Shown here: positions 4,881 through 36,682 of the stretch, piece by piece
Position numbering within the stretch: position 1 is the first letter of the stretch
How the letters are laid out: every line of letters starts with the position of its first letter
Source of the DNA: a virus
DNA: 36,682 nt
Strand: one strand, 5' to 3'
Virus record (IMG/VR): IMGVR_UViG_3300037010_000295
Location: 1-36,682 of that record
The notes under the pieces: generated by a model
The model's database searches: none
What the model was told of the DNA's origin: nothing
Seen by the model: the letters and a program-made list of their open reading frames with translations, nothing else
Program-made: the position numbers and the translations under genes

Positions 4881-5396
4881 ATGGCTAATGTAAAACCGGG
4901 TGCTTCAGGGTCGGTTAATTTCCCTGAGCTAATGTCAGATGAAAAGTTTTATGGGTACATCAAATTGTACCATTTTATTGCTAGGCCGAGTAAAATAAAC
5001 CCACGAATAATTGAGTATAGGCCACATGAATCGTTAAACGATACAAATATACATGAGTTGCGAGATGAGACCATAGTGCTACTTAGAGACGCCTTTAACG
5101 CATATGCCCCAGACGGGTTTGAGTTTGTGGAATTTAAGTTTGTTCGTAAATCACTTAACCCACCAAAAATATTACACCGGCCAGAAGAACCGATTGTTTG
5201 TTTCTATAACGATTTATCTAACGTTGTAGTGTATAGACATGGTAAGGATATAACCAACACTATGTTCGGTATACGATTACGTTTAGCATTAGTGTGTGAA
5301 TACCCAAGGTTAAACGTAAATTATCAAATCATGTTATTGGTTAACATAGTTCGTAAACCACTTAAGAATTTAGAAACTGAAAAGTTGGATATTTAA
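4881..5396 (+). CDS. hypothetical protein (171 aa)
   Basis: I do not recognise it. ATG 4881 (MANVKPGASG) is chosen because GAGGTG lies 4 nt upstream; an in-frame ATG at 4869 would include that ribosome site. The sequence is mixed alpha/beta with hydrophobic strands (FEFVEFKFV, YQIMLLVNIV) and no membrane-length segment. It lies between two palindromic hairpins and looks like a single-gene transcript. Confidence 0.7.
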   Translation: MANVKPGASGSVNFPELMSDEKFYGYIKLYHFIARPSKINPRIIEYRPHESLNDTNIHELRDETIVLLRDAFNAYAPDGFEFVEFKFVRKSLNPPKILHRPEEPIVCFYNDLSNVVVYRHGKDITNTMFGIRLRLALVCEYPRLNVNYQIMLLVNIVRKPLKNLETEKLDI

Positions 5397-5410
5397 TAGT
5401 CGTAAAAAAG

Positions 5411-5448
5411 CACCAGTGCCTACACAGACATCTGTGTAGGCACTGGTG
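5411..5448 (+). terminator. 18-bp hairpin after the 171-aa gene
   Basis: CACCAGTGCCTACACAGA pairs perfectly with its complement. The tail is AAAATTC rather than a T-run, so the role (terminator or stabilising 3' end) is uncertain. Between here and 5595 I see no supported gene. Confidence 0.6.
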
Positions 5449-5601
5449 TAAAATTCACTTAAAACATTTAGAGGTAGGTATTACGACTGTATCAGTTGCG
5501 CGTACGTTGGCATTCGAGTGTGCAACCTTGCAGTGTCTAACATTACATTCGTGGGCGTAAATTAACTAGCGAGGTCAGACTAATCAATTTGAGAATGTGG
5601 T

Positions 5602-6018: not shown

Positions 6019-7214
6019 AAGACTACAGCGATTCGTGTACTTACCACCACGTTTACATGGACATTAATCAGTGAGTGTTCCGTAATAAAATCTATCTTTT
6101 CTTTTATGTCATCGTATTCACGTGACTTAAACCGACTAGACGATAATACGTTCTTTAATTTATTTGCCACTTCAGGAATGTTAGTTAAATGTATATTTTC
6201 TCGTTTTAATAAGGACAGCGTGAACATTATGATTTCATCTACCAATTCCGGTATATCAATGTGGTGCCCCTTTATCTTTGTGGCAGTGTAATTCTCTGAC
6301 ATAAACTGTAACACTTTAGTCAAATAGAATTCGGTTGCTGTTTTAACAGTCAATATAACTGCTTCCACTAAATCGGTTTTAATAAAGTTGTTCTTATCTG
6401 GAACAATGTGATACATTGCGTTCTTTGTATGCGCGTATGAGTTAACAGAGTCTTTTAAAATAGCCTCCCCCTCTAATACTGTAAATTTAGAGGTGGTAAT
6501 TAACTTACTTTGCTTTTCCTTAATCTCATAGAACTTATCAGTAAGACTTTGTACTAACGAGCGTAAACGTGTACTAATGTCATTTAATGCAGCAACTAAC
6601 CCTAAGTCCGGTTCAAGTGTTCTAATAGTCTTAGCGTGTAATGCGTCGTGCGCTAGGATACTTTCTGCTCTGTCATCTAACATAGCTTGCCATGAGCCAA
6701 ATCTTTTTAATTGGGATTTGTTATCCAGTGACTCATACACCATTTGTGCAACCCCTTCATCTGCTGGGTATGGGAATCGTCTGGTATGTAAGCTACTTAA
6801 AATTTTATACTGTAAACCCATTAACGCAGCGGTAGCTAAAATCATTTTTTCTTTTTCGGGTAGGTCAGAAATCAACGCTCTATAAACTACCCATAGAAAC
6901 GATAAGTTAATTGCATCAGATGACACCTTATATGAACGGTTAATATCAGGTAAGTCATATAAGTCGGATTGTAGTTTATCGTAATCGATGATTTGTAAAA
7001 CTTCATGTTTCCACATATAGAAATCTTCATTGACCATTACAAACGGATATGTGCCGATTAAGTTTCCACCTAAAAAATTAATGTGGTCGCGTAGTCTGTC
7101 TGATTTTCTTGCAATATCTCTAACCCAAGATACAACAGCTAGTGAAAACTTTCTATCGATCGGTCTCGTGCAGTGTTCATTAAATATAGCTAGAACGGAA
7201 TTTTCTTTAATCAT
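5985..7214 (-). CDS. hypothetical protein (409 aa)
   Basis: I do not recognise it. ATG at 7214 has AAAAAGGAAAC as ribosome site on the minus strand. The protein looks mainly alpha-helical with charged helices; residues ~205-250 (from ISTRLRSLVQ on) could form a short coiled coil, and the C-terminus is hydrophobic (VVFYIALRALLA). It is one of four minus-strand genes in the window. Its start lies back to back with the promoter-like region at 7277-7350. There is no catalytic motif to assign a role; a virion or internal head protein is possible but unsupported. Confidence 0.75.
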   Translation of the reverse strand: MIKENSVLAIFNEHCTRPIDRKFSLAVVSWVRDIARKSDRLRDHINFLGGNLIGTYPFVMVNEDFYMWKHEVLQIIDYDKLQSDLYDLPDINRSYKVSSDAINLSFLWVVYRALISDLPEKEKMILATAALMGLQYKILSSLHTRRFPYPADEGVAQMVYESLDNKSQLKRFGSWQAMLDDRAESILAHDALHAKTIRTLEPDLGLVAALNDISTRLRSLVQSLTDKFYEIKEKQSKLITTSKFTVLEGEAILKDSVNSYAHTKNAMYHIVPDKNNFIKTDLVEAVILTVKTATEFYLTKVLQFMSENYTATKIKGHHIDIPELVDEIIMFTLSLLKRENIHLTNIPEVANKLKNVLSSSRFKSREYDDIKEKIDFITEHSLINVHVNVVVSTRIAVVFYIALRALLAK

Positions 7215-9514: not shown

Positions 9515-10468
9515 ATGAAAAAGAATGTAACGAATGTCTATTTATTTGGTGGCTGTGGTTTAAGTTTAGGTGCGGCTTGTGACGTTGAGCAAGTTGGTGA
9601 CTTCAGTGGATTTGGTCAGCCCAATATGATTTATTTCGATTCATCAAAAGCAAATATCCCTGGGGGCGATACAAACGTTACACTCAGATCAGGCACTGAT
9701 GGTTTCGGTAAAGACCGCGAAGAAGCAAAGCGACTAATGGGTGACCAAATTGATCCGTTTTTAAGAGAAAACCCACCGACAGAATTCAATATTCTAGTGT
9801 TCTCATTATCGGGCGGCACGGGGTCTGTACTTGGTCCATTGGTAGTTGAAGCTATCAACCGATTAGGTAAAAACGTAGTTTCGATTGTTGTCCAAGCAGC
9901 TGAATGTGAAAAGTCAACTTCCAACACTCTGGAAACTATACGCGATCTGAACAAGGTGTCTAATCGTTTGAAAAAACCAGTTGTTGTTAGCTTCCACGAT
10001 AACTTCGGTCCAGACTGTACTATGGAAAGTGTGAATAAAGCAATCCATCAAGAATTGCGTACATTGATGATTTTGTGTAGCCAACAAAACGTAGGTCTTG
10101 ACAGTAGCGATATGGAAAAACTACTTGACTACACAACTGTTGTTCCCAACGTGAAACATCGGCTGGTTGATTTACTGATTAATTTCGGTAACGAACTCGA
10201 AGTCACAGGTGCAGTTTCCACAATTTCATTACTTGTAGACCCAATGTCACCCCCTCTGAACATCATTAAACATTGGGGTAAAAATGCATATATCCCAAGT
10301 AGTACAGTCGGTGCCACTAAAGTGCCAATGACCGATATGCACTTTATAACCACGCCTGTACTTATGGCAGCCCGCATGATTGAGTTAGAAAAATATCTGT
10401 CACATTTTCCGGCACATTTAAAAGCCATGGAAGACGCGGCGTATGATTTTGGTGATGACGAAGAGTAA
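9515..10468 (+). CDS. phuZ: PhuZ-type phage tubulin
   Basis: This is the phage tubulin/FtsZ-family GTPase that polymerises into a spindle, centres the phage nucleus and moves capsids. The N-terminus has FGGCGLSLGAA. The tubulin signature is LSGGTGSVLGP, with GGTGS at residues 100-104. Around 145-170 are the helices and strand expected of the GTPase core. The C-terminus ends acidic (DFGDDEE), as expected of the tail needed for filament contacts in PhuZ. At 317 aa it matches phiKZ gp39. Codon use is richer in G/C-ending codons than most neighbours, suggesting strong expression. An AAGGA site lies upstream and a terminator follows. Confidence 0.95.
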   Translation: MKKNVTNVYLFGGCGLSLGAACDVEQVGDFSGFGQPNMIYFDSSKANIPGGDTNVTLRSGTDGFGKDREEAKRLMGDQIDPFLRENPPTEFNILVFSLSGGTGSVLGPLVVEAINRLGKNVVSIVVQAAECEKSTSNTLETIRDLNKVSNRLKKPVVVSFHDNFGPDCTMESVNKAIHQELRTLMILCSQQNVGLDSSDMEKLLDYTTVVPNVKHRLVDLLINFGNELEVTGAVSTISLLVDPMSPPLNIIKHWGKNAYIPSSTVGATKVPMTDMHFITTPVLMAARMIELEKYLSHFPAHLKAMEDAAYDFGDDEE

Positions 10469-12083: not shown

Positions 12084-14360
12084 ATGTTACACAATAGAGA
12101 TTTATTCATACAGGCACCAGAGTGCTACAGCCGAAACTTAGACATTATTGAAGAGTCCATCTTAACGTATGCTCATTTTTTTCATTTAAAATCTGGAAAT
12201 CCGATGGATGTATGCGTGGACTACATCCGTAAGAAAACATCTGCTGGTGAAAAGTTTGAATTAAAACCAATCACGTTAATGGGTTTACAACAAGATGAAA
12301 ACGGTGACAGAGTTGTAGCGCATATTAATTTTCATAAGTTCATTACTTCTACTAAGCGTAATAGACACATCTTAACCCCCAACGTTGCGCTGTACTATCA
12401 CCCAGACGTCAAACAATCTCCGCTAGTTAAATACATTAAAGGTAAAAAGAAAAAACGTAAGGCGGTTAAACGCGCTGGACAAATCGCTGAACAACTTGGT
12501 GACTATGAAGAATTTGCGATTAACAATAACTTAGAGTATGCTATTAAGATTCTAACAAATAGTTTATCCGGTGCACACGCTTCGAAATACAACCCGCTGT
12601 GGAACGAGTCGGCACATAGTACACTCACTTCAATCTCGAGAGTGTTTGTATCATACTCTAATGCTAGCACTGAACGTTTCCTTATGGGTAATCGACATTA
12701 CTGGTCTAAAGATGTAGTATTAGAAAACATTTTAACAATCACTCGCAACACAGATTACGTTGCGCTAAAGCAAATCGTTGATAAATATAACCTGCACATT
12801 CCCACCGCCGATGAAGTGATGGAAATGATTGAACGTTCTACTACGTTTTATTGGTATAGCCAACAACAACTATTAGACATTAGACTTCTAGTTAGTAAAC
12901 TTAATAAACTACAGAGAGTGTCGTTTTTGTATACTGGTGATTTCTACAGTCTTTATACATTAAATGATAGTTTTGTAAGAGAATTCTTAGACGACTTAAT
13001 GTCAGTGAGTAACGTCATTGATAATTATCCAGATGCTAACTTAGACGATATTGTTGCAGGTACAAATACCGGTATCGCATCATTGGCGTGTATTTACTGT
13101 ATGGAGTTCTTAAAAGGCTCTATGGTTTCCAAAGTTAAAGTTGAGTCTCCAGAAAATTACAGAGTTTATGTTAATACGATTCTACATATCGAGTTAACTC
13201 TGTTGAAATACGAAGACTTATTAGTAACGTTCTACCGTACTGAAAATTTACCATCTTCAATCTTTTCATTTCCGTCATCTATTCGTAGAGCTGTTATTGG
13301 GTCTGACACTGACTCAGTGATGTACACTGTTCAACAACAAGTAATCTGGAAGTATGGTAGATTAGAATTAGGTCCAGACACACCTAAGTTTTCAAACACT
13401 ATATCGTTCCTGAACAATGTGGTAGTTGACCACTGCTTAGTTGTTATTGGTAAACAAATGGGTGTTGCTGATTCTGAGCTACTTACATTAAGAATGAAGA
13501 ATGAGTTTGAGTTCTACGTGTATATGCGTGCGAATAGAGCTAAACACTATGCAACATTAATGACATCTAAAGAAGGTCTTGTGTTTAGTAAACCGAGGTC
13601 TGAGATTAAAGGGGTGGGTTTAAAGGATTCAAAGATACCAAAATTTGTTATGAGTTCGTTAGATGATGAACTTGTAAAGATTATGACACTGTTATCTAAC
13701 GATGGTACTATTGAAGCGTTTCCGGTTATGCAAAGAATCGCTAACTTTGAACATTTAATTTATCAGTCTTTACTAAAAGGTGATATCACCTACTTAGTTG
13801 GTATAAATATAAACACTAAGGAGGGATATAAAAACCCAATGTCCAGTAACTATTTACATTACAAGTTATGGACTGAAGTATTTGCTCCAATCTTTGGTAA
13901 CATTTCTGAACCACCATATCGTGCAGTTAAGGTTTCAACTGTAGTTGGTAAAAAGAAGTTATTTGCAGAATGGTTGGCTACTGCTGATAAACATATCGCA
14001 GAGCCTCTAATGGCGTGGATGGCAGATAATAATAAAGATTGTTTTAAACAGATACTACTACCTTTAGAAATCGTCGCTGGAGGCGTTCCTAAGGAGTTTT
14101 TATCAATGCTAGATTTACGTAGCACCGTAGCAGATATATCGGCTGGCTATTACATAGTCTTGGAAATGATGGGGTTCTACTTTGATAACGTGCATAACAC
14201 GCAATTGGTATCAGACAGAATGCCATATCGTGAAGAATTTGGTTTACCTGGAGGTAGAACTATCGAGAGTATTATTGGATCTAGTATGGAAGTGGATGAC
14301 GACGAGGAAGATGCCTTTGCTGAATTTACTGAAGTTGAAGAACCAGAAGAAGAAGATTAA
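12084..14360 (+). CDS. family B DNA polymerase, catalytic (C-terminal) part
   Basis: This replicative polymerase subunit carries family B motif B as ILTNSLSGA (N159 onward) and motif C as SDTDSVMY, with the catalytic aspartates at D408 and D410. The N-terminal ~150 residues hold a very basic stretch (GKKKKRKAVKR). No 3'-5' exonuclease motifs and no clear motif A (DxxSLYP) are visible, so these must lie in another polypeptide, consistent with a split polymerase as in phiKZ-like phages. The distance between motifs B and C is unusually long (~250 residues), indicating an insertion. The C-terminus is strongly acidic. The start ATG has GGAG upstream. Confidence 0.85.
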   Translation: MLHNRDLFIQAPECYSRNLDIIEESILTYAHFFHLKSGNPMDVCVDYIRKKTSAGEKFELKPITLMGLQQDENGDRVVAHINFHKFITSTKRNRHILTPNVALYYHPDVKQSPLVKYIKGKKKKRKAVKRAGQIAEQLGDYEEFAINNNLEYAIKILTNSLSGAHASKYNPLWNESAHSTLTSISRVFVSYSNASTERFLMGNRHYWSKDVVLENILTITRNTDYVALKQIVDKYNLHIPTADEVMEMIERSTTFYWYSQQQLLDIRLLVSKLNKLQRVSFLYTGDFYSLYTLNDSFVREFLDDLMSVSNVIDNYPDANLDDIVAGTNTGIASLACIYCMEFLKGSMVSKVKVESPENYRVYVNTILHIELTLLKYEDLLVTFYRTENLPSSIFSFPSSIRRAVIGSDTDSVMYTVQQQVIWKYGRLELGPDTPKFSNTISFLNNVVVDHCLVVIGKQMGVADSELLTLRMKNEFEFYVYMRANRAKHYATLMTSKEGLVFSKPRSEIKGVGLKDSKIPKFVMSSLDDELVKIMTLLSNDGTIEAFPVMQRIANFEHLIYQSLLKGDITYLVGININTKEGYKNPMSSNYLHYKLWTEVFAPIFGNISEPPYRAVKVSTVVGKKKLFAEWLATADKHIAEPLMAWMADNNKDCFKQILLPLEIVAGGVPKEFLSMLDLRSTVADISAGYYIVLEMMGFYFDNVHNTQLVSDRMPYREEFGLPGGRTIESIIGSSMEVDDDEEDAFAEFTEVEEPEEED

Positions 14361-18196: not shown

Positions 18197-20140
18197 ATGA
18201 GTGAATTAATTGACGAACCAACCGTTCCAAGTAGAAGACAACCTGGTGTGAATACCCAGTCTACACAAAAACCCCAAACGCCTATTGGTGGTCGTCGCAA
18301 CGTTAATAGTCTGTTTGGAATGGCAATGTCTGGCAATCGACAATCGGCAGACATGGGTGAAATCCACGAATCGTTTAGTACACTGTGTACCGGTTACTAT
18401 AACGCGACTGGTGTAACTATTGAAGCTATAGCTTTCGACGACATCTCGCTATTAATACCTGCCGAAATGTTAGTGGTGCGAGAAGGCAACCGACTATACG
18501 TCGGTGTATTTTTAATATCACATTTGCTGCGTAGTCCGATTCCGGATTTTGTGGAAGGTGGCGTATACGGTCGTGAAATTGTATTGCCTCAAACTGAGGA
18601 GTCCCTATGGACTTCTCCGTTAATGCGTGAACGTGCATTTTCCTTATTAAGTCGCACTTTCTTTTCTGACAAAAATTATTCGATGGCAGAATTGGAAAAA
18701 CAAATCGTGATAGCGAGCGTACAGCGTTTATCACCATCAAAACGTTATATTACAACTGGCGATTGTGAAGTCCCATTTGACCACGCAATGGCTAGCATTT
18801 TAGCTTACATTAAGTTGGCTCGTGGCGAAGGTACCTCATTGTTCACGGCCGATGATTTGCGTAGTGCTGGTTATAGCATGATGGTGCGGCACAAAATTAA
18901 TCCCACAGGTATGTCGGTGAACACCTATGGTGAGCCGATGGCTTGTGATATCGAATTAACGTTAGTGGCGCGTTCACAAAAGCGAGCCGATTCACTGCAT
19001 CAATCTGAAGTTGACCAAATCATCTGTCAGGTTTCGTTGACGATTGATTTCCTACCAATGAAACCAGGTAGTGAGGTGGTGCGGTTGAGTAATCGACTTG
19101 AGTATCACCCATTGGTTGTACCAATATTTATTATCCGTCAAGCGACCACGGTTAGTTTAGGTACAACGAATAACGATTCATTCCTAACGCAGATTTTGGC
19201 GTTAAGTATGGTTAAGGCGTATTCCGAAGATCCACAACGTTGGGGTCAGCTCTTTGAACCTGGTGCGATGTCAAACTGTATTAATAACATCGGTCTGTTG
19301 GGTAAATTGGGTGACCCAAATCCATCGTCAAATGAAATCCCTGGTGTTATTACAATTTTGCCACGCGGTTCATATTCTACTGAACCAAAAAGTAAAACTG
19401 TATTACAGGTAATCGAACAATACTGTTCTTCAACTCCAATAATCGCGATGGACATTGTTCGCGCTGGACCAATGCAAGGTCTGCAAGAGCTGTTCACGTA
19501 CACAGACGCTGAAAACTTACTTAACACTGAGTTGTCATCGTTTGTTATGGAGTACAATGAAACAACCCAAACGCATGAAATTGATAAGGATGCGTTTTTC
19601 AAGTTCTGGCACGGTGAATTCGGTGGTCCCATTAAAGCACCTATCTTTGACCCGAATCATGATTTGTCTGGGCACGTTGACCAGTACGAGGGTACGTTTG
19701 TTGGAAGTGATAACCAACTTCACGACATCAATGAAGTTGATTTACTGGCGTTCTTGTACGATGACTCAGTTAGTGAAGAGACACTTGTTAAATATGCAAA
19801 CTGTAGTGTGCCATCTGACAATTCAATGATAGACCTCGACAACCGCTACCAACTGATTACAGGCATCTTGCCACATGCCACTATCACCGGTAAATCAATG
19901 CGTTATTTCTTCAACCCACACCTGCTGTTTGTAATTGATCGTTATTTGACATCATACGGCGTTGGTTTTGAGTTGGACGAAAACATGCTGCATGTTCGCA
20001 GCTCGTTTGGTCTGAACCGCGACTACTTACTGGAAGGGAATGAACATTCATCTGCTTTCCGATCAGCCGGTATTCGTCGTGGCGACACACGTGGGAATGA
20101 ACAGTTCCAACCAATCAACCCACGTAAAAAGTTCTACTAA
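18197..20140 (+). CDS. chmA: probable chimallin (phage nucleus shell protein)
   Basis: I infer this is ChmA, which assembles the proteinaceous shell enclosing replicating phage DNA. The 647 aa are close to known ChmA lengths (631 aa in 201phi2-1). The gene sits directly upstream of RNA polymerase beta', as phiKZ gp54 precedes gp55, in a genome that also has PhuZ. The first ~50 residues are polar, Pro/Gln/Arg-rich and likely flexible. The last ~30 are polar and basic, also likely flexible, which suits a protein that links neighbours through its termini. Codon use is shifted to G/C-ending codons more than nearly any other gene here, a sign of very high expression. It has its own promoter motif, leader and terminator. 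Another abundant structural protein is the alternative. Confidence 0.7.
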   Translation: MSELIDEPTVPSRRQPGVNTQSTQKPQTPIGGRRNVNSLFGMAMSGNRQSADMGEIHESFSTLCTGYYNATGVTIEAIAFDDISLLIPAEMLVVREGNRLYVGVFLISHLLRSPIPDFVEGGVYGREIVLPQTEESLWTSPLMRERAFSLLSRTFFSDKNYSMAELEKQIVIASVQRLSPSKRYITTGDCEVPFDHAMASILAYIKLARGEGTSLFTADDLRSAGYSMMVRHKINPTGMSVNTYGEPMACDIELTLVARSQKRADSLHQSEVDQIICQVSLTIDFLPMKPGSEVVRLSNRLEYHPLVVPIFIIRQATTVSLGTTNNDSFLTQILALSMVKAYSEDPQRWGQLFEPGAMSNCINNIGLLGKLGDPNPSSNEIPGVITILPRGSYSTEPKSKTVLQVIEQYCSSTPIIAMDIVRAGPMQGLQELFTYTDAENLLNTELSSFVMEYNETTQTHEIDKDAFFKFWHGEFGGPIKAPIFDPNHDLSGHVDQYEGTFVGSDNQLHDINEVDLLAFLYDDSVSEETLVKYANCSVPSDNSMIDLDNRYQLITGILPHATITGKSMRYFFNPHLLFVIDRYLTSYGVGFELDENMLHVRSSFGLNRDYLLEGNEHSSAFRSAGIRRGDTRGNEQFQPINPRKKFY

Positions 20141-20224: not shown

Positions 20225-21577
20225 ATGGGTTTACACACGAGGTTACCAGATTACGACGCAATATTTAAGAGTTTAAATAACTCTATATTGTTAAATGAAG
20301 TACCGTATGTGACAAAGGAAGATAGAGTGTTATTTAATTCTCTATTGATAACAAAAACAGAAACTGATGTACTATGTAGCGTCCCTACATGTGAGTGTGG
20401 AAAATACACTTACGGTTATAATGAGGGGCGTGTATGTGATAACTGCAATACAACAGTGCAGTTACAAAATGAAAGTATTATTGATACAAAGGTGTGGATA
20501 CAGTGTCCAGAAGGCGTACACGGCTTTATATCCCCATTCCTGTGGATAAAACTAAAACACCTGACTGCTAATTCAGGATACAATATTTTACTGTGGGCCA
20601 TCGACCCAAAAAGTGTACCACGTCCACGAAAACCAACTAAGTTAGTTAAGTTACGAATAGATGCTTTGGAGAGAGCGGGGTGGCAGCGTAGCTTAAATTA
20701 TTTTATTGAACATTGGGAGGCTTACTTTATCATTATGGCTGAAACTTTAGTTGGAAAAGCTAAGGCCAAAATGTATTCGGAGTTAGATTTATTAAGTAAG
20801 AACAAGGCAATGTTTTTTCCTAAATATCTGCCGGTGCCAACAAAAGCTCTGATGGTTATTGAGAAAACGAATCTTGGTAATTACGCTGATACATCCACCA
20901 TGAGTTATGCAGTAGCAGCTGCGAAAACAATTGGTGTTATCAGTATGCCACGCAACCCACCGATGAAACCATTGTCGGTTAAGTATTTGGAAAGTAAAAT
21001 TGTCGGAGTGTGTGAAAACTTGACAATCTACTCAGCTAACACATTTAAGAAAAACATCTGTCCGAAAAGCGGTTGGTTGAGAGGTCATGTTTATCGCGCA
21101 AGGTCAGACTTTACCGGAAGAGCAGTAATTACATCAATACCAACCCCACATTGGTATGCGGAGTTGCACCTCCCATGGACTATGGGGGTTGAGATATTTA
21201 AGTTTCATATCATCAATATTCTTAGAAATAAATACGAGTACTCTAGAAAAGAGTATACCACTTTATTGAATTACGCGGGTAGCAACTACGACCCAATAAT
21301 AGATGACATATTACAATCGCTTATTGCTAGTGGCGAAAAGTTACCGAGACGTATAAAATTTGATGAAGGGTTTCACCGTTGGCGTGGATTAACGACTGAA
21401 CAAATTAATCAAATACGCTTACCGGAACACGGTATATGTAGCGCATTTCAACGAAACCCAACGCTAGGTTTGGGTTCTATGCAACGGTTATATGTCACTA
21501 AATTCAAAACAGACTTAACAGATAAGTCTATTTCTATGAGTGATTTGATTGCCGCCGCATTTAATGCAGACCATGAT
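20225..21577 (+). CDS. RNA polymerase beta' N-terminal subunit, exon 1
   Basis: This encodes the beta' part of the phage multisubunit RNA polymerase, probably the non-virion enzyme (phiKZ gp55 position). A zinc ribbon is visible at C56, C58, C71 and C74. The double-psi barrel region has RSDFTGRAVIT, equivalent to the bacterial VDYSGRSVI. RNPTLGLGSMQ matches RxPTLHRxSIQ, and AFNADHD is the start of the NADFDGD catalytic loop. Without splicing the frame ends NADHDI-stop, lacking the third catalytic aspartate. Exon 1 ends at T21577; joined to 23452 it restores NADHDGDEMN. The spliced product is 512 aa. GAGAGGG precedes the ATG. Confidence 0.93.
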
Positions 21578-21674
21578 ATTTAATAGTGTGTTAAACGTAG
21601 TGTTTTTAGGACTACGTCTTGATATAGCTTAATACTATAGTGTGTAAACACTTCATAAATATAGGGAATAGGTT

Positions 21675-23078
21675 ATGTATAAGACTATACCAAATGCTAC
21701 AGAATATGAAATTTCAATAAAAGACGAAACAATACGAAGAAAAGACGGTGATATTTGCGAATTACCGTTTACTGTAATAAACGAATCAAAATGCGTTACA
21801 TTAAAAATATACGGTATCGTTAGAACTGTGTCCACTGAATGGTTAAAATTATTAGCTAACTTTGAGGTAGATGTAGAACGATGTTATTTCTTTAATATAG
21901 ATTTTGTGCCAATGAAAGATTGGAAGTATGCCAATTCTGTAAAGAAAGTTATGGTTTTTAGAAATAGTCACCCCGAGTATAAACCTGGGTTTAGATTAAT
22001 ACCAAATTACACTCGATATGCTGTTTCCGAAGAAGGGGTGGTACACGACACATACCTTAACATTTTAGTAAAACCTTTAAACACAAAAGGTTTATATACA
22101 CGAGTTAATATTTACGATCCAGATAAAAATAAGGTTGTACACGTGTTACTGCATCGATTAGTTGCATTGGCCTGGAAACCGAATAAATCACACACAGTCT
22201 TTTATTTAGTTAACCATTTAGATGGAGATAAATGCAACCCACACGCTTCTAACCTAGAGTGGACTAACCATCTAGGTAATATCGATCCTGCATTTAAGAC
22301 CGGATTACGTTCAGAAAACTTACCTTGTAAAGTTCGTAATGTTGATACTGGTGAAATCACTGAATTCAATACGATTGTTGAAGCCTGCACGTTTATAGGT
22401 ATAAGTCATGTACCGTACACTGAAATATTAACTCGTAGTAAACATAGACCGCTTAACGGGTTATATGAGTTAAGGGTTTCATCTGATACCACACCTTGGA
22501 ATTTGTCTTTACAAAAACTAACTGACCCAAACTGTAGATCCGTTATAACACTAACTGATAAAGAAGGTGCGATTACAGTATATCGCGGCTATAGAGAAGT
22601 GTGTAAAAGTGTTGATATTCAATTTCGTAGAACGTGTAGAGAAATGAATAATCAATTGAAACGTTTGGGGTACACAGTGGAAGTTAAAAAACTTACACCA
22701 CACACCAAAGATGATAAACCGATACAAGTTAGAACTGTTGAGACTGGTATAGTTCAAACCTTCGATAATATCCGTGAAGCTAGTAAAATGTTGAACATTC
22801 ACGTAACTGTAATACGTAACTATTTAGGTAGGGACGAAACATCAGTTTCTAAAGGTTTGCAGTATAGATACAAATGTGATAAACCGTGGAAAGAAGGTGT
22901 CAATGAAGCTACAAATATACCAAAACGCATATTGGGTGTTTGTACAGATGGAAGAGAAATTGAGTTTACATCTTTATTAGATGTATTACGACAAACCGGC
23001 GTTAATAGTAAAGCCGTAGTTAGAGCAATAAATACAGGAATACAGGTCTCGTCCACCTGGAAGTTTTATAAGAATTAA
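21675..23078 (+). CDS. intron-encoded HNH homing endonuclease with repeated NUMOD-type DNA-binding modules
   Basis: The enzyme should cut intronless copies of the beta' gene to spread the intron. Two NUMOD4-like modules are visible (residues ~1-60, and ~97-165 with YAVSEEGVV and LLHRLVALAWKPN). The HNH core VNHLDGDKCNPHASNLEW spans residues 179-196 with N180, H181 and N193. Four NUMOD1/IENR1-like helix-turn-helix repeats start near V220, S289, V352 and I419 (for example FDNIREASKMLNI), an unusually long recognition array. GGGAATAGG precedes ATG 21675. The frame is intact at 467 aa, so it looks active. Confidence 0.92.
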   Translation: MYKTIPNATEYEISIKDETIRRKDGDICELPFTVINESKCVTLKIYGIVRTVSTEWLKLLANFEVDVERCYFFNIDFVPMKDWKYANSVKKVMVFRNSHPEYKPGFRLIPNYTRYAVSEEGVVHDTYLNILVKPLNTKGLYTRVNIYDPDKNKVVHVLLHRLVALAWKPNKSHTVFYLVNHLDGDKCNPHASNLEWTNHLGNIDPAFKTGLRSENLPCKVRNVDTGEITEFNTIVEACTFIGISHVPYTEILTRSKHRPLNGLYELRVSSDTTPWNLSLQKLTDPNCRSVITLTDKEGAITVYRGYREVCKSVDIQFRRTCREMNNQLKRLGYTVEVKKLTPHTKDDKPIQVRTVETGIVQTFDNIREASKMLNIHVTVIRNYLGRDETSVSKGLQYRYKCDKPWKEGVNEATNIPKRILGVCTDGREIEFTSLLDVLRQTGVNSKAVVRAINTGIQVSSTWKFYKN

Positions 23079-23128
23079 CACACTAATTATGTCCTACACA
23101 CAGGTAACTGTGTGATAGATTCTTCTTG

Positions 23129-23451
23129 AATTGCTGAAACCCCCTAAAGCTGTCTCACTACAATAGCTGCGAAAGCAGGCTATGAATGTCTGAAAACGAG
23201 ACGGATATTACAATGGGCAATCGTGGACTCTAAGAGTCCCTTTAGCAGCTAAGGTTCTAAGTCACTATGTGATATGAACAAAGTTCAACGATCAACCGCT
23301 AATGACGGTGTAGAGCCTCTAGTTATAAAATGAGGAAGAAGTGGGAAGCACCCTGATATATCAGGGTGAAGATATGATCTGACCACACATGAGAATGTGT
23401 GCGGGTGTCTTAGCACACCGCATTAGTGTAACGAGCTAATGGGACAACGTG
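23129..23451 (+). ncRNA. group I intron 1 catalytic core
   Basis: The core begins near AATTGCTGAAA. P7 can form between GATCA (23290-23294) and TGATC (23375-23379). P8 is CCTC (23316-23319) with GAGG (23332-23335). Then follow the conserved segment TCTGACCACACATGAG, and a P9-type stem (CATTAG/CTAATG) before the 3' splice site. The matching P7 pair in intron 2 is GACTA/TAGTC, a compensatory double change. This is a phage type group IA-like arrangement; the subgroup is not established. Confidence 0.88.
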
Positions 23452-23637
23452 GGCGATGAGATGAACTTTACTTTAACTCTGTTAGCTAAGTTTATCAACG
23501 CTATGGAAGTGTTAGATGTTAAGTACGCCATTCACGACCCTATTAAATTAGGTAAGTTGAATGGAAACATTAAGTTACCAGACCCAACTCTGGAAACTCT
23601 CGCAAACTTTTTAAATGTACGGTATTATGACAATTGA
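23452..23637 (+). CDS. RNA polymerase beta' N-terminal subunit, exon 2
   Basis: It continues directly from exon 1 with GDEMNFTLTLLAKF, equivalent to the bacterial GDQMAVHVPLS after NADFD, and ends 61 codons later at TGA. The third catalytic aspartate lies in its second codon. A GTG at 23449 gives a spurious independent start without a ribosome site. The rest of beta' must be encoded by another gene, as in phiKZ-like phages. Confidence 0.92.
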   Translation, partial: GDEMNFTLTLLAKFINAMEVLDVKYAIHDPIKLGKLNGNIKLPDPTLETLANFLNVRYYDN

Positions 23638-34009: not shown

Positions 34010-35251
34010 ATGAGTAAAAATGTAGCAGAAGACACAGAGTCTGTAGAGGCAGAGGGATTAATACGTGAATTCTTTGAGGTCAAGAATTCGTTGATTGGAT
34101 TAATAGCCTTAATTAATCCGTTTGCAATATATGACAGTAGCCCACGTTTGGCTATGTTGCATAACCATATTAGGCAAGCACCACCCGTATTAAAACCTGA
34201 CATACCATTGATATTAAATGGTAATGAAACACAGTTGGTAGCATACGATATTCGTATGCCAGATGATGGAACTATAGTTTCAGTTCATAGAAAGTATAGA
34301 AAAACATTAGATACATCTAGTGTAAAAAACAATCCGTTGACGACTATTATCTATCGAAACTTCCATACAAACGAATACGATTGTGTACATATACATGAGT
34401 TTAACACAAATCACAAAACGTATGGTGCACGGTACATAATACAGCCAATCGTTGCGACTTTACATGAGGGTATGCTTATACCAAAAGGTACGTTATTTGC
34501 AAGAAGTCCATCGAAGCTGGAGGGTGATATCTATTCAACCAGTGTGACCTGTAATGTGCTAGCGGTTGGTAGTCCGGATGTTATTGAAGATGGGTTTGGT
34601 GCAAGTGATTTGTTTTGTGAAAGAGCAGGTTTACTGGAATTGAAGACTGTTACTCGGTCGTGGGGAAAGTTTAAATATCTTTTAAGTGCCCACTCGAGAG
34701 ATCCGAATGTATTTAAGGGTTTACTGGATATTGGTGACATGGTTGGACCCGATGGTATTCTGATGGTATTCAGAACAAAGAATCCACTATTCGACGCATT
34801 AGACGTTACGAATGAAGCGTTGATGGAAATAGACCACGATCATGACACGAAAGTACATTGTGAACCAGGGTTTATAGTTTATGATATTACAATAGAAAGT
34901 GGCAATGGGGAAACCACAAGTAAACCGACAACACCTAGAAATATTGCTGCCCAATCTGAAAAATATATCAGTGGACTTAGCGCATACTACAGTGGGTTGT
35001 TGGAATCACACGATAACTTGTCTAAGGACCCCCAAGGTCGTATTAATAGAAATGTAGTGTTTTCACCAAGATTAACCCAGTTGCTAACGCGAGCTATTGC
35101 AGATAAACCAAATGCACCAGCTAATAAAGTTGCTGCTGGTGGTAGAGTACGTAGAGCAAGAAAGAAAGAAAAGTTAGATGAGTATACAGTTACAATTAAA
35201 CTATATAAACCAAAACCACTTGGTATGGGTGCAAAGTTAACAGACCTCAAT
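34010..35251 (+). CDS. RNA polymerase beta C-terminal subunit, exon 1
   Basis: This encodes the C-terminal half of beta of the phage RNA polymerase, in the position of phiKZ gp71-73. QPIVATLHEGMLIPKGTLFA and CNVLAVGSPDVIEDGFGASD match the bacterial beta region around GYNFEDSI; GDMVGPDGILMVFRTKNP corresponds to VKPGDILVGKVTPK. The exon ends GAKLTDLN, just before the GNKGV-type motif. Without splicing it ends NGK-stop after 416 residues. Joining T35251 to 36039 gives LTDLNGKGVICNIRP. GAGG precedes ATG 34010. The first 18 coding bases are identical to those of the gene at 25327. Confidence 0.9.
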
Positions 35252-35321
35252 GGTAAATGACAGTTCAAGTCTACACAAGTAACACTATGTATTGGATTTT
35301 TAATTTTAATATGATATTGTA

Positions 35322-35656
35322 ATGTTTAAATTAATTCCAGGAAATAGTGCTTATAAAATTTCATTAACTGGTAAAGTTGTAAATGGTAGTGGCGTAGAGT
35401 GCATTCTGCCTACTACAGGTGATAAAGTTTCAATAAAGTTATACGGTATAAAACAGATTTACCGTGGGATACAAATTTTACCAGATGTAAAAACAGTAAA
35501 GTGTGCATACTTGCTGTTAACCTAAACACAAATGAAAACGTTAAGTTTAATTCGATATCTAAAACTGCTCATAAACTTGGTGTCAGTCGAGATGTTATAA
35601 AAATGCGGCTTAATAAACAAATTTCATTTAATGGATGGGTGTTTAAAGAAATATAA
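35322..35656 (+). pseudogene. degenerate homing endonuclease remnant in intron 2
   Basis: The first frame (35322-35525) encodes MFKLIPGNSAYKISLTGK and KVSIKLYGI, matching the N-terminus of the intron 1 endonuclease (MYKTIPNATEYEISIKD, VTLKIYGI). A second frame (35513-35656) encodes its last NUMOD1-like repeat (FNSISKTAHKLGV, GWVFKEI against STWKFYKN). A large internal deletion has removed the HNH domain and the other repeats, and a frameshift separates the two ends. It cannot be a nuclease. Confidence 0.85.
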
Positions 35657-35713
35657 ATCGTGTAGAAAACTGTTCTGCCTTAGTATAAAGTAATTTATAT
35701 TAATTATCTCTTT

Positions 35714-36038
35714 AATTGCTGGAAACTCTCGTTAGACTAATCAACTACAATGTTCTCGAAAGAGTGAAACTAGGTATAAATACCTAGAACATGAATGTTT
35801 GAAAATGATTAGGTAGAGACAATCTGCATCCAAGTCCCTAAGTCGAAAGATACGGGAAAGGTTCAACGACTAACCGCTTATTACGGTGTAAAGCCTCTAG
35901 TTATAAAATGAGGAAGAAATGGGAGACGCCCTACCTGAGACGGTCTCAGAGGGCGATGATATAGTCTGACCACACATGAGAATGTGTGCGGGTGTCTTAG
36001 CACACCGGGTTGAATTAACGACTCAACTGGACAACGTG
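35714..36038 (+). ncRNA. group I intron 2 catalytic core
   Basis: It begins near AATTGCTGGAAA. P7 is GACTA (35868-35872) with TAGTC (35962-35966), inside the typical GATATAGTCTGA segment. P8 (CCTC/GAGG) is identical to intron 1. The P9-type stem is GTTGA/TCAAC where intron 1 has CATTAG/CTAATG, so helices are kept while bases differ. This is strong evidence for a functional fold. Confidence 0.88.
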
Positions 36039-36682
36039 GGAAAAGGTGTGATTTGTAATATACGTCCACATAACGAAATGCCACACGATGAAGCGGGTAA
36101 TATCGCTGACTTAACCTACTATTATAAAGCTGGGGTGGCTCGATTAAACACAGGTGGTTTAGTCGAGGGTTTCATAGGTGCTAGTATTCGTGATATAAGT
36201 TTTGAAATAAAAGATTTGTATAATGGTGAATTAATAGTTGGTGAATGGAACGGTAAGCATCAATTGGCGTGGGATAGGGTTGTGTCGTTTTATGAACAAA
36301 CTTCGCCGTTGTCGTATGGGTGGTCTCAATCTCCAGAACTCACGAACAATGATCGAATCTACCATTTGAATTCGATAATTGAAACTACAGTTAGAATTAT
36401 GTTCCCGTTGGATAACCCAAAGAACGGAATTGGAATTATTGATGATATACGCACTATAATAAATCCGACATTTGGAACCATCTGGTTTACCGATTTCTTA
36501 GGTAGAAAAATACCACTGAAACAAACTGGTATGATTCAGACAAAACAAATTATCGTTCTGGAGAAAACAAAGTTGGATCCGATGGCTGTAGCTGGTGCCA
36601 TAAGACAAATCCACGGCTTACCATCGGGTGCAAATAAAAACACTAGAGATTCACATGCGTATAAAGTCCACGCCCTTAGAAA
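36039..36682 (+). CDS. RNA polymerase beta C-terminal subunit, exon 2 (3' end outside the window)
   Basis: The frame is open to the last base (214 full codons). It starts GKGVICNIRPHNEMPHDE, equivalent to bacterial GNKGVVSKINPIEDMPYDE. Near the window end, GMIQTKQIIVLEKTKLDP and DSHAYKVHAL align with the bacterial GYMYMLKLNHLVDDK and FGEMEVWAL, so little of beta is probably missing. Confidence 0.9.

Follow-up and report, generated by a model that had tools for sequence, protein, structure and literature searches.

The catalytic NADHD↓GD loop of a phage non-virion RNA polymerase (nvRNAP) beta' subunit (arrows mark insertion points) is interrupted at positions 21578-23451 by what is very probably a mobile group I intron. 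The window, the whole stretch of DNA that was analysed, is an IMG/VR record of 36,682 bp and covers part of the genome of a phiKZ-like phage that forms a nucleus, a chimallivirus. Along with the nuclear shell protein, tubulin PhuZ and a divergent family B DNA polymerase (Table 1) it codes for an SbcD-like nuclease and two nvRNAP subunits. The insertion site, the junction, the fold, the intact ORF and the intronless alleles are read from the sequence itself. An intergenic near-perfect inverted repeat at 5410-5449 is probably a terminator; its weak match to a microRNA model is surely due to chance.

Table 1. Features of the window and of related beta' loci. Positions refer to the window except for micro-exons, which are numbered in their own loci; F, D1, D2 and D3 denote residues of the NADFDGD loop.
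Feature	Position	Strand	Details
PhuZ tubulin	9515-10468
Divergent family B DNA polymerase	12084-14360
Nuclear shell protein	18197-20140
beta' exon 1 (gp55-type, N-terminal subunit of nvRNAP)	20225-21577	+	451 aa, ends NADHD
Group I intron 1, IA-like	21578-23451	+	1,874 nt; last base G; 5' exon ends U
P1 5' strand, GAU↓AU	21575-21579	+	pairs with 23089-23093; U21577. G23091 at splice site
P1 extension, 5' strand UAGUGUGUUAA	21584-21594	+	perfect 11-bp stem with 23075-23085
HNH/NUMOD1 homing endonuclease ORF	21675-23078	+	467 aa, intact, inside P1 loop
P1 extension, 3' strand	23075-23085	+	overlaps ORF stop codon
Internal guide sequence AUGUC	23089-23093	+	pairs with P1 5' strand
P2 hairpin	23097-23114	+	GUAA tetraloop; fully re-paired in L128a, L131a, L141b
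P4	23131-23136 / 23243-23248	+	covariation
P7, GAUCA / UGAUC	23290-23294 / 23375-23379	+	predicted guanosine-binding helix; 5/5 paired in 8/8 introns
P9, P9.1, P9.2 hairpins	23384-23441	+	covarying
beta' exon 2	23452-23637	+	GDEMNFTLTLL...YYDN; stop at 23635-23637 included
beta exon 1 (gp71-73-type)	34010-35254	+	ends ...KLTDLNG; PHROG 3295, E 2.1e-73
Group I intron 2	35255-36038	+	784 nt; Rfam 76.8 bits; junction from comparison with L187
Decayed endonuclease ORF of intron 2	35322-35656	+	N- and C-terminal remnants, HNH part gone
beta exon 2	36039-36682	+	GKGVICNI...; runs past window end; PHROG 3295, E 8e-32
Insertion RN↓PTL			KTN4, L134, L141, L143, L158
Insertion A↓PN			LucasX
Insertion N↓A			phiKZ, KpGz_1, AerS_266
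Insertion A↓D1			Proteus phage 7, L141
Insertion D1↓F			L119, L125, L126, L128, L144
Insertion one base into F			L117, L120
Insertion two bases into F			Goslar
Insertion D2↓G			window, MS32; L114 (5' side only)
Insertion G↓D3			AerS_266, L121, L126, L128, L130, L131, L135, L142
Insertion D3↓Q			PA7
Insertion DGDA↓M			Goslar
Extra insertion in L131			just before loop, inside codon preceding NAD
Micro-exon, L126	7141-7149		9 nt, TACGACGGT
Micro-exon, L128	7118-7126		9 nt, TTTGACGGT
Micro-exon, L141	7422-7433		12 nt; follows two introns, contig ends inside third
Micro-exon, Goslar (L015)	6134-6146		13 nt, CGACGGTGACGCT
Micro-exon, AerS_266 (L103)	5086-5100		15 nt, GCAGACTTTGACGGT
Micro-exon, L131	7153-7172		20 nt

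The identity of the interrupted gene is clear from exon 1, which matches PHROG 2987 'RNA polymerase beta subunit' (E 7e-101), chain A of the phiKZ nvRNAP structure (PDB 7OGP; E 1.8e-60) and, in tblastn searches, sequences in 272 phage records, including phiKZ gp55. Its last bases (...AATGCAGACCATGAT) encode N A D H D, and exon 2, which opens at 23452 with GGC GAT GAG (G D E), continues to the C-terminus expected of such a subunit. The intron therefore lies, as the initial annotation had placed it, between the second and third Mg-binding aspartates (GAT ↓ GGC GAT), with the second catalytic Asp on its 5' side and the Gly on its 3' side, and its removal restores the conserved protein across NADHD↓GDE. 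The joined exons align without a gap at the junction to two intronless beta' genes, one (GACCATGATGGGGATGAA; L106, IMGVR_UViG_3300035661_000011) with 95% amino acid identity over the N-terminal 370 residues and the other (GACCATGATGGGGATGCG; L107) with 53% identity, so that the proposed 21577/23452 junction is exact. This restoration counts for splicing, as the polymerase could not work without the DxDGD that spliced beta' contains. The unspliced frame does stop one codon further on (ATT TAA; Ile, stop), but the idea that no partially active subunit could then be made was overstated, as the unspliced mRNA would still give a 452-aa N-terminal fragment.

A co-conversion tract near the site was considered, given that identity to L106 is 74-78% there versus 84-88% at 600-1400 nt upstream; it was dismissed because identity to this relative varies equally elsewhere (61-85%) and the difference hence provides no evidence.

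The Rfam model RF00028 (Intron_gpI) matches positions 23072-23401 with 42.8 bits (E 8.4e-8), which is below the curated gathering score of 50 bits, likely because a 1.4-kb ORF sits in the P1 loop, where the P1 of the model cannot fit. The intron reading thus came through the group I model search that had been suggested as a check, albeit with a match under the gathering score, and it gains further support from a covarying core. The splice sites have the form characteristic of group I introns, with exon U21577 opposite guide G23091 and with G23451 as the end of the intron. The exon part of P1 has only three base pairs, which counts against the assignment; the exon-guide pairing covaries, though, with GAU/GUC in intron 1 versus GGU/GCC in a second intron of the window (intron 2, described below), and elsewhere with GACGGU/GCCGUC versus GAUGGU/GCCAUC. 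The 11-bp P1 extension, equalled in one of 2,000 shuffles, closes off the whole ORF. Two other guides, one at the ORF start (GUUAUG, 21672) and one with a longer pairing inside the ORF, were dropped because the guide placed directly after the P1 extension gives the U.G pair and covaries with intron 2.

Covariation with related introns supports the splice sites, P1, P2, P4, P6, P7, P8 and P9. In a MAFFT alignment of intron 1 with seven related introns 83.5% of cells were paired and two-sided changes occurred in 43 of 66 pairs (the helices were taken from intron 1, whose row pairs by construction, unlike the other rows). None of 500 shuffles reached the observed values, and sliding the helix partners lowered pairing to 34-49%. 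P7 shows a double compensatory change, from GAUCA/UGAUC in intron 1 to GACUA/UAGUC in intron 2 and most relatives. Support from the alignment is weak for P3 (63% of cells paired), and the intron 2 counterpart of the P2 hairpin was picked by eye. Group IA features are present, namely P7.1/P7.2 (23295-23335) between P7 and P3, with good support for P7.2 in introns 1 and 2 alone, and the P9 extensions (23384-23441). A conserved P3-P9 core with P7 is thus recognizable from covariation, together with the Rfam match below the gathering score.

We considered whether there is no intron at all, the subunit being truly made as two separate polypeptides whose genes flank a free-standing HNH gene. RNA polymerase genes of jumbo phages are naturally split elsewhere (PMC7598289); here, however, the break sits within the Mg-binding loop, the ribozyme core is complete and covaries, the intronless alleles join exactly, and the corresponding phiKZ protein was solved as a fused product, all of which make a split subunit so improbable that we reject it.

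The ORF of the group I intron is similar to PHROG 59 HNH endonucleases (E 2.6e-29) and to Pfam NUMOD1 (E 1.7e-9), in agreement with the initial annotation of an HNH endonuclease ORF within a phiKZ-like RNA polymerase gene. A match to HNH_3 reaches 13 bits only, below the cut-off of 24.8, and was counted against the assignment; the N-H-x-D and NLEW motif residues do align with the HNH region of phiPA3 gp210. The protein thus combines an HNH motif (sub-threshold for HNH_3) with NUMOD DNA-binding modules and is likely to be a working endonuclease. A search of IMG/VR for relatives of the ORF or for the exact intron tail found none. A broken HNH ORF akin to the window ORF is present in the closest relative (G001), with a group I core nearby on the other strand (51399-52426 and 52870-53180).

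From this anatomy we infer the following course of events. In the folded RNA the GAU that ends exon 1 would pair with the guide GUC, the 11-bp stem would loop the endonuclease ORF out of P1, and P7 would bind guanosine; the ribozyme would then cut after U21577 and join it to G23452, restoring NADHDGDE. The 467-aa HNH protein would probably nick or cut the empty site, GACCATGAT↓GGCGATGAG (the joined exon sequence, its predicted target), in intronless relatives, and repair would copy the intron in. Introns may land preferentially in the catalytic loop because it withstands neither imprecise loss nor drift of its sequence. The site had been described as a conserved target that lets the endonuclease find related phages; this holds for near relatives (17 of 20 bases kept in both L106 and L107), whereas the median over 65 intact loops is 12 of 20.

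It is also conceivable, though in our judgement unlikely, that the intron splices while its endonuclease is inactive or immobile, the element being a neutral passenger. Intron 2 of the same window has lost the HNH part, the ORF is present in decayed form in one relative, and many loop introns in other loci (295-428 nt) are too short for such an ORF. The ORF of intron 1, on the other hand, is open over 467 codons with its N-H-x-D and NLEW residues kept, and the closest relative is intronless, which fits a recent gain.

Intron 2, absent from the initial annotation, interrupts the nvRNAP beta gene at LTDLNG↓GKGV; the gene is uninterrupted in both relatives (open frames of 716 aa in G001 and 708 aa). 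The cores of introns 1 and 2 are 81% identical, and tblastn with the intron 1 ORF gave two fragments in intron 2, in different frames. The sequence comparison suggests that both are copies from a single mobile family, sited in two active-site loops of the polymerase.

Introns of this type are already known from phiKZ and phiPA3. The phiKZ genes gp55, gp56 (HNH) and gp56.1, a precedent that the initial annotation lacked, are an exon, an HNH ORF and an exon of one nvRNAP beta' gene, and the joined protein PHIKZ055-PHIKZ056.1 appears in PDB 7OGP, 7OGR, 8QUE and 9RJS. As in the window, the intron has a group I core (75.6 bits) with an HNH ORF 5' of it and lies in the same loop of the same gene; it differs in its position, N↓ADFDGD, four codons upstream of NADHD↓GD, and gp56 is about 24% identical to the window ORF. 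The terms splic-, HNH and 56.1 were absent from the phiKZ nvRNAP structure papers that were searched, as were splic- and 56.1 from a 2015 biochemical paper on this polymerase. Vibrio phage vB_VmeM-Yong MS32 has a gp55-type intron, carrying no such annotation, in the same gene and at the identical point (NADFD↓GD), whereas its ORF is only about 18% identical to that of the window. The phiKZ gp71-73 and phiPA3 065 introns (nvRNAP beta) lie in the same beta region as intron 2, one codon off (TDFHGG↓KGV). In phiKZ the virion beta' gene, gp180, is likewise interrupted at GAD↓FDGD (D1↓F; L104, phiKZ 184800-188800), gp179 being the HNH ORF there; the deposited gp180 consequently lacks FDGD. Because gene callers end the gene at the intron, catalytic residues are missing from the annotation of a number of phage polymerase genes in the databases. 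Group I introns of Bastillevirinae also occur several per phage gene, and cDNA shows a small exon flanked by two of them, but they lie in rNDP reductase, DNA polymerase and terminase genes and not in an RNA polymerase loop (PMC11878797).

Like the window ORF, phiPA3 gp210 is an HNH endonuclease in an RNA polymerase gene, and over 94 nt the core of its intron is 76% identical to intron 1 and 87% to intron 2; its location is different, in the virion RNA polymerase beta gene (gp211/gp209) after a conserved Asp pair. Experimentally, gp210 is a nicking homing endonuclease that nicks the phiKZ virion RNA polymerase beta gene (gp178) and acts in competition between co-infecting phages (PMC11620839). 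The initial annotation invoked such competition, which is thus documented for gp210 and not for the gene or site studied here. As an addition to homing rather than a replacement for it, the window endonuclease could also be a co-infection weapon, damaging the gene for nvRNAP beta' in relatives that lack the intron. This precedent, the empty-site alleles of close relatives with their largely conserved target and the kinship of the intron cores make the idea a tentative possibility, one that we put below an even chance given that the published target is a different gene and that simple homing explains the same anatomy.

The site in the window is one of many. Sampling with an N-terminal query independent of the loop yielded 80 IMG/VR gp55-type loci, of which 58 were intact, 21 had an interruption at the loop or just before it and one was cut by a contig end (the fraction 21/79 is rough, as near-duplicates are included). 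Most interrupted loci have Rfam group I matches above the gathering score. Introns enter at about ten different points within a stretch of nine codons at or near the NADFDGD loop (Table 1), and the matched gp55 segments showed none upstream of roughly residue 330. The 5' junction in L108 ends in C, not U. In Erwinia phage SNUABM_54 (L005, about 4264 and 5620) a loop intron follows DFDG, and in the deposited sequence the exon after it does not join in frame, possibly owing to a sequencing error or an extra intron.

Stacks of two or three introns occur in six loci, two of them from cultured phages; the introns are separated by micro-exons of 9-20 nt that encode parts of the NADFDGD loop and hold catalytic aspartates. 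Joining across two introns restores the unbroken conserved motif in L126, L128, Goslar, AerS_266 and L131. In four of the six loci Rfam detected a core on either side of the micro-exon; in L126 and Goslar the second of the two cores scored weakly or under the threshold, and Goslar intron B (Rfam 16.7 bits only) rests on its motifs and the restored reading frame. Since Goslar and AerS_266 have complete genomes and grow in culture, their genes with micro-exons must be read somehow. Our literature search, with subscription journals mostly outside its reach, found no description of the loop hotspot or of micro-exons. We therefore regard the hotspot with its stacked introns and micro-exons, seen in relatives and not in the window itself, as provisionally new; it had no place in the initial annotation.

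The window intron offers a clean case, with an intronless near-twin, of a kind of element that is known to influence how giant phages compete. Beyond this single case, what stands out is how densely insertion points crowd into one catalytic loop, together with the stacking of introns around micro-exons. With the arguments evenly balanced in our view, the NADFDGD loop may be a recurrent intron battleground in many lineages, where occupancy of the site may itself be protective against rival endonucleases, so that stacking would record an arms race over a single essential target. The pattern would make two questions testable: whether a phage whose target site holds an intron is protected from rival homing endonucleases, and how a pair of group I ribozymes with only 9-20 nt of exon between them can splice correctly in the gene of an essential enzyme.
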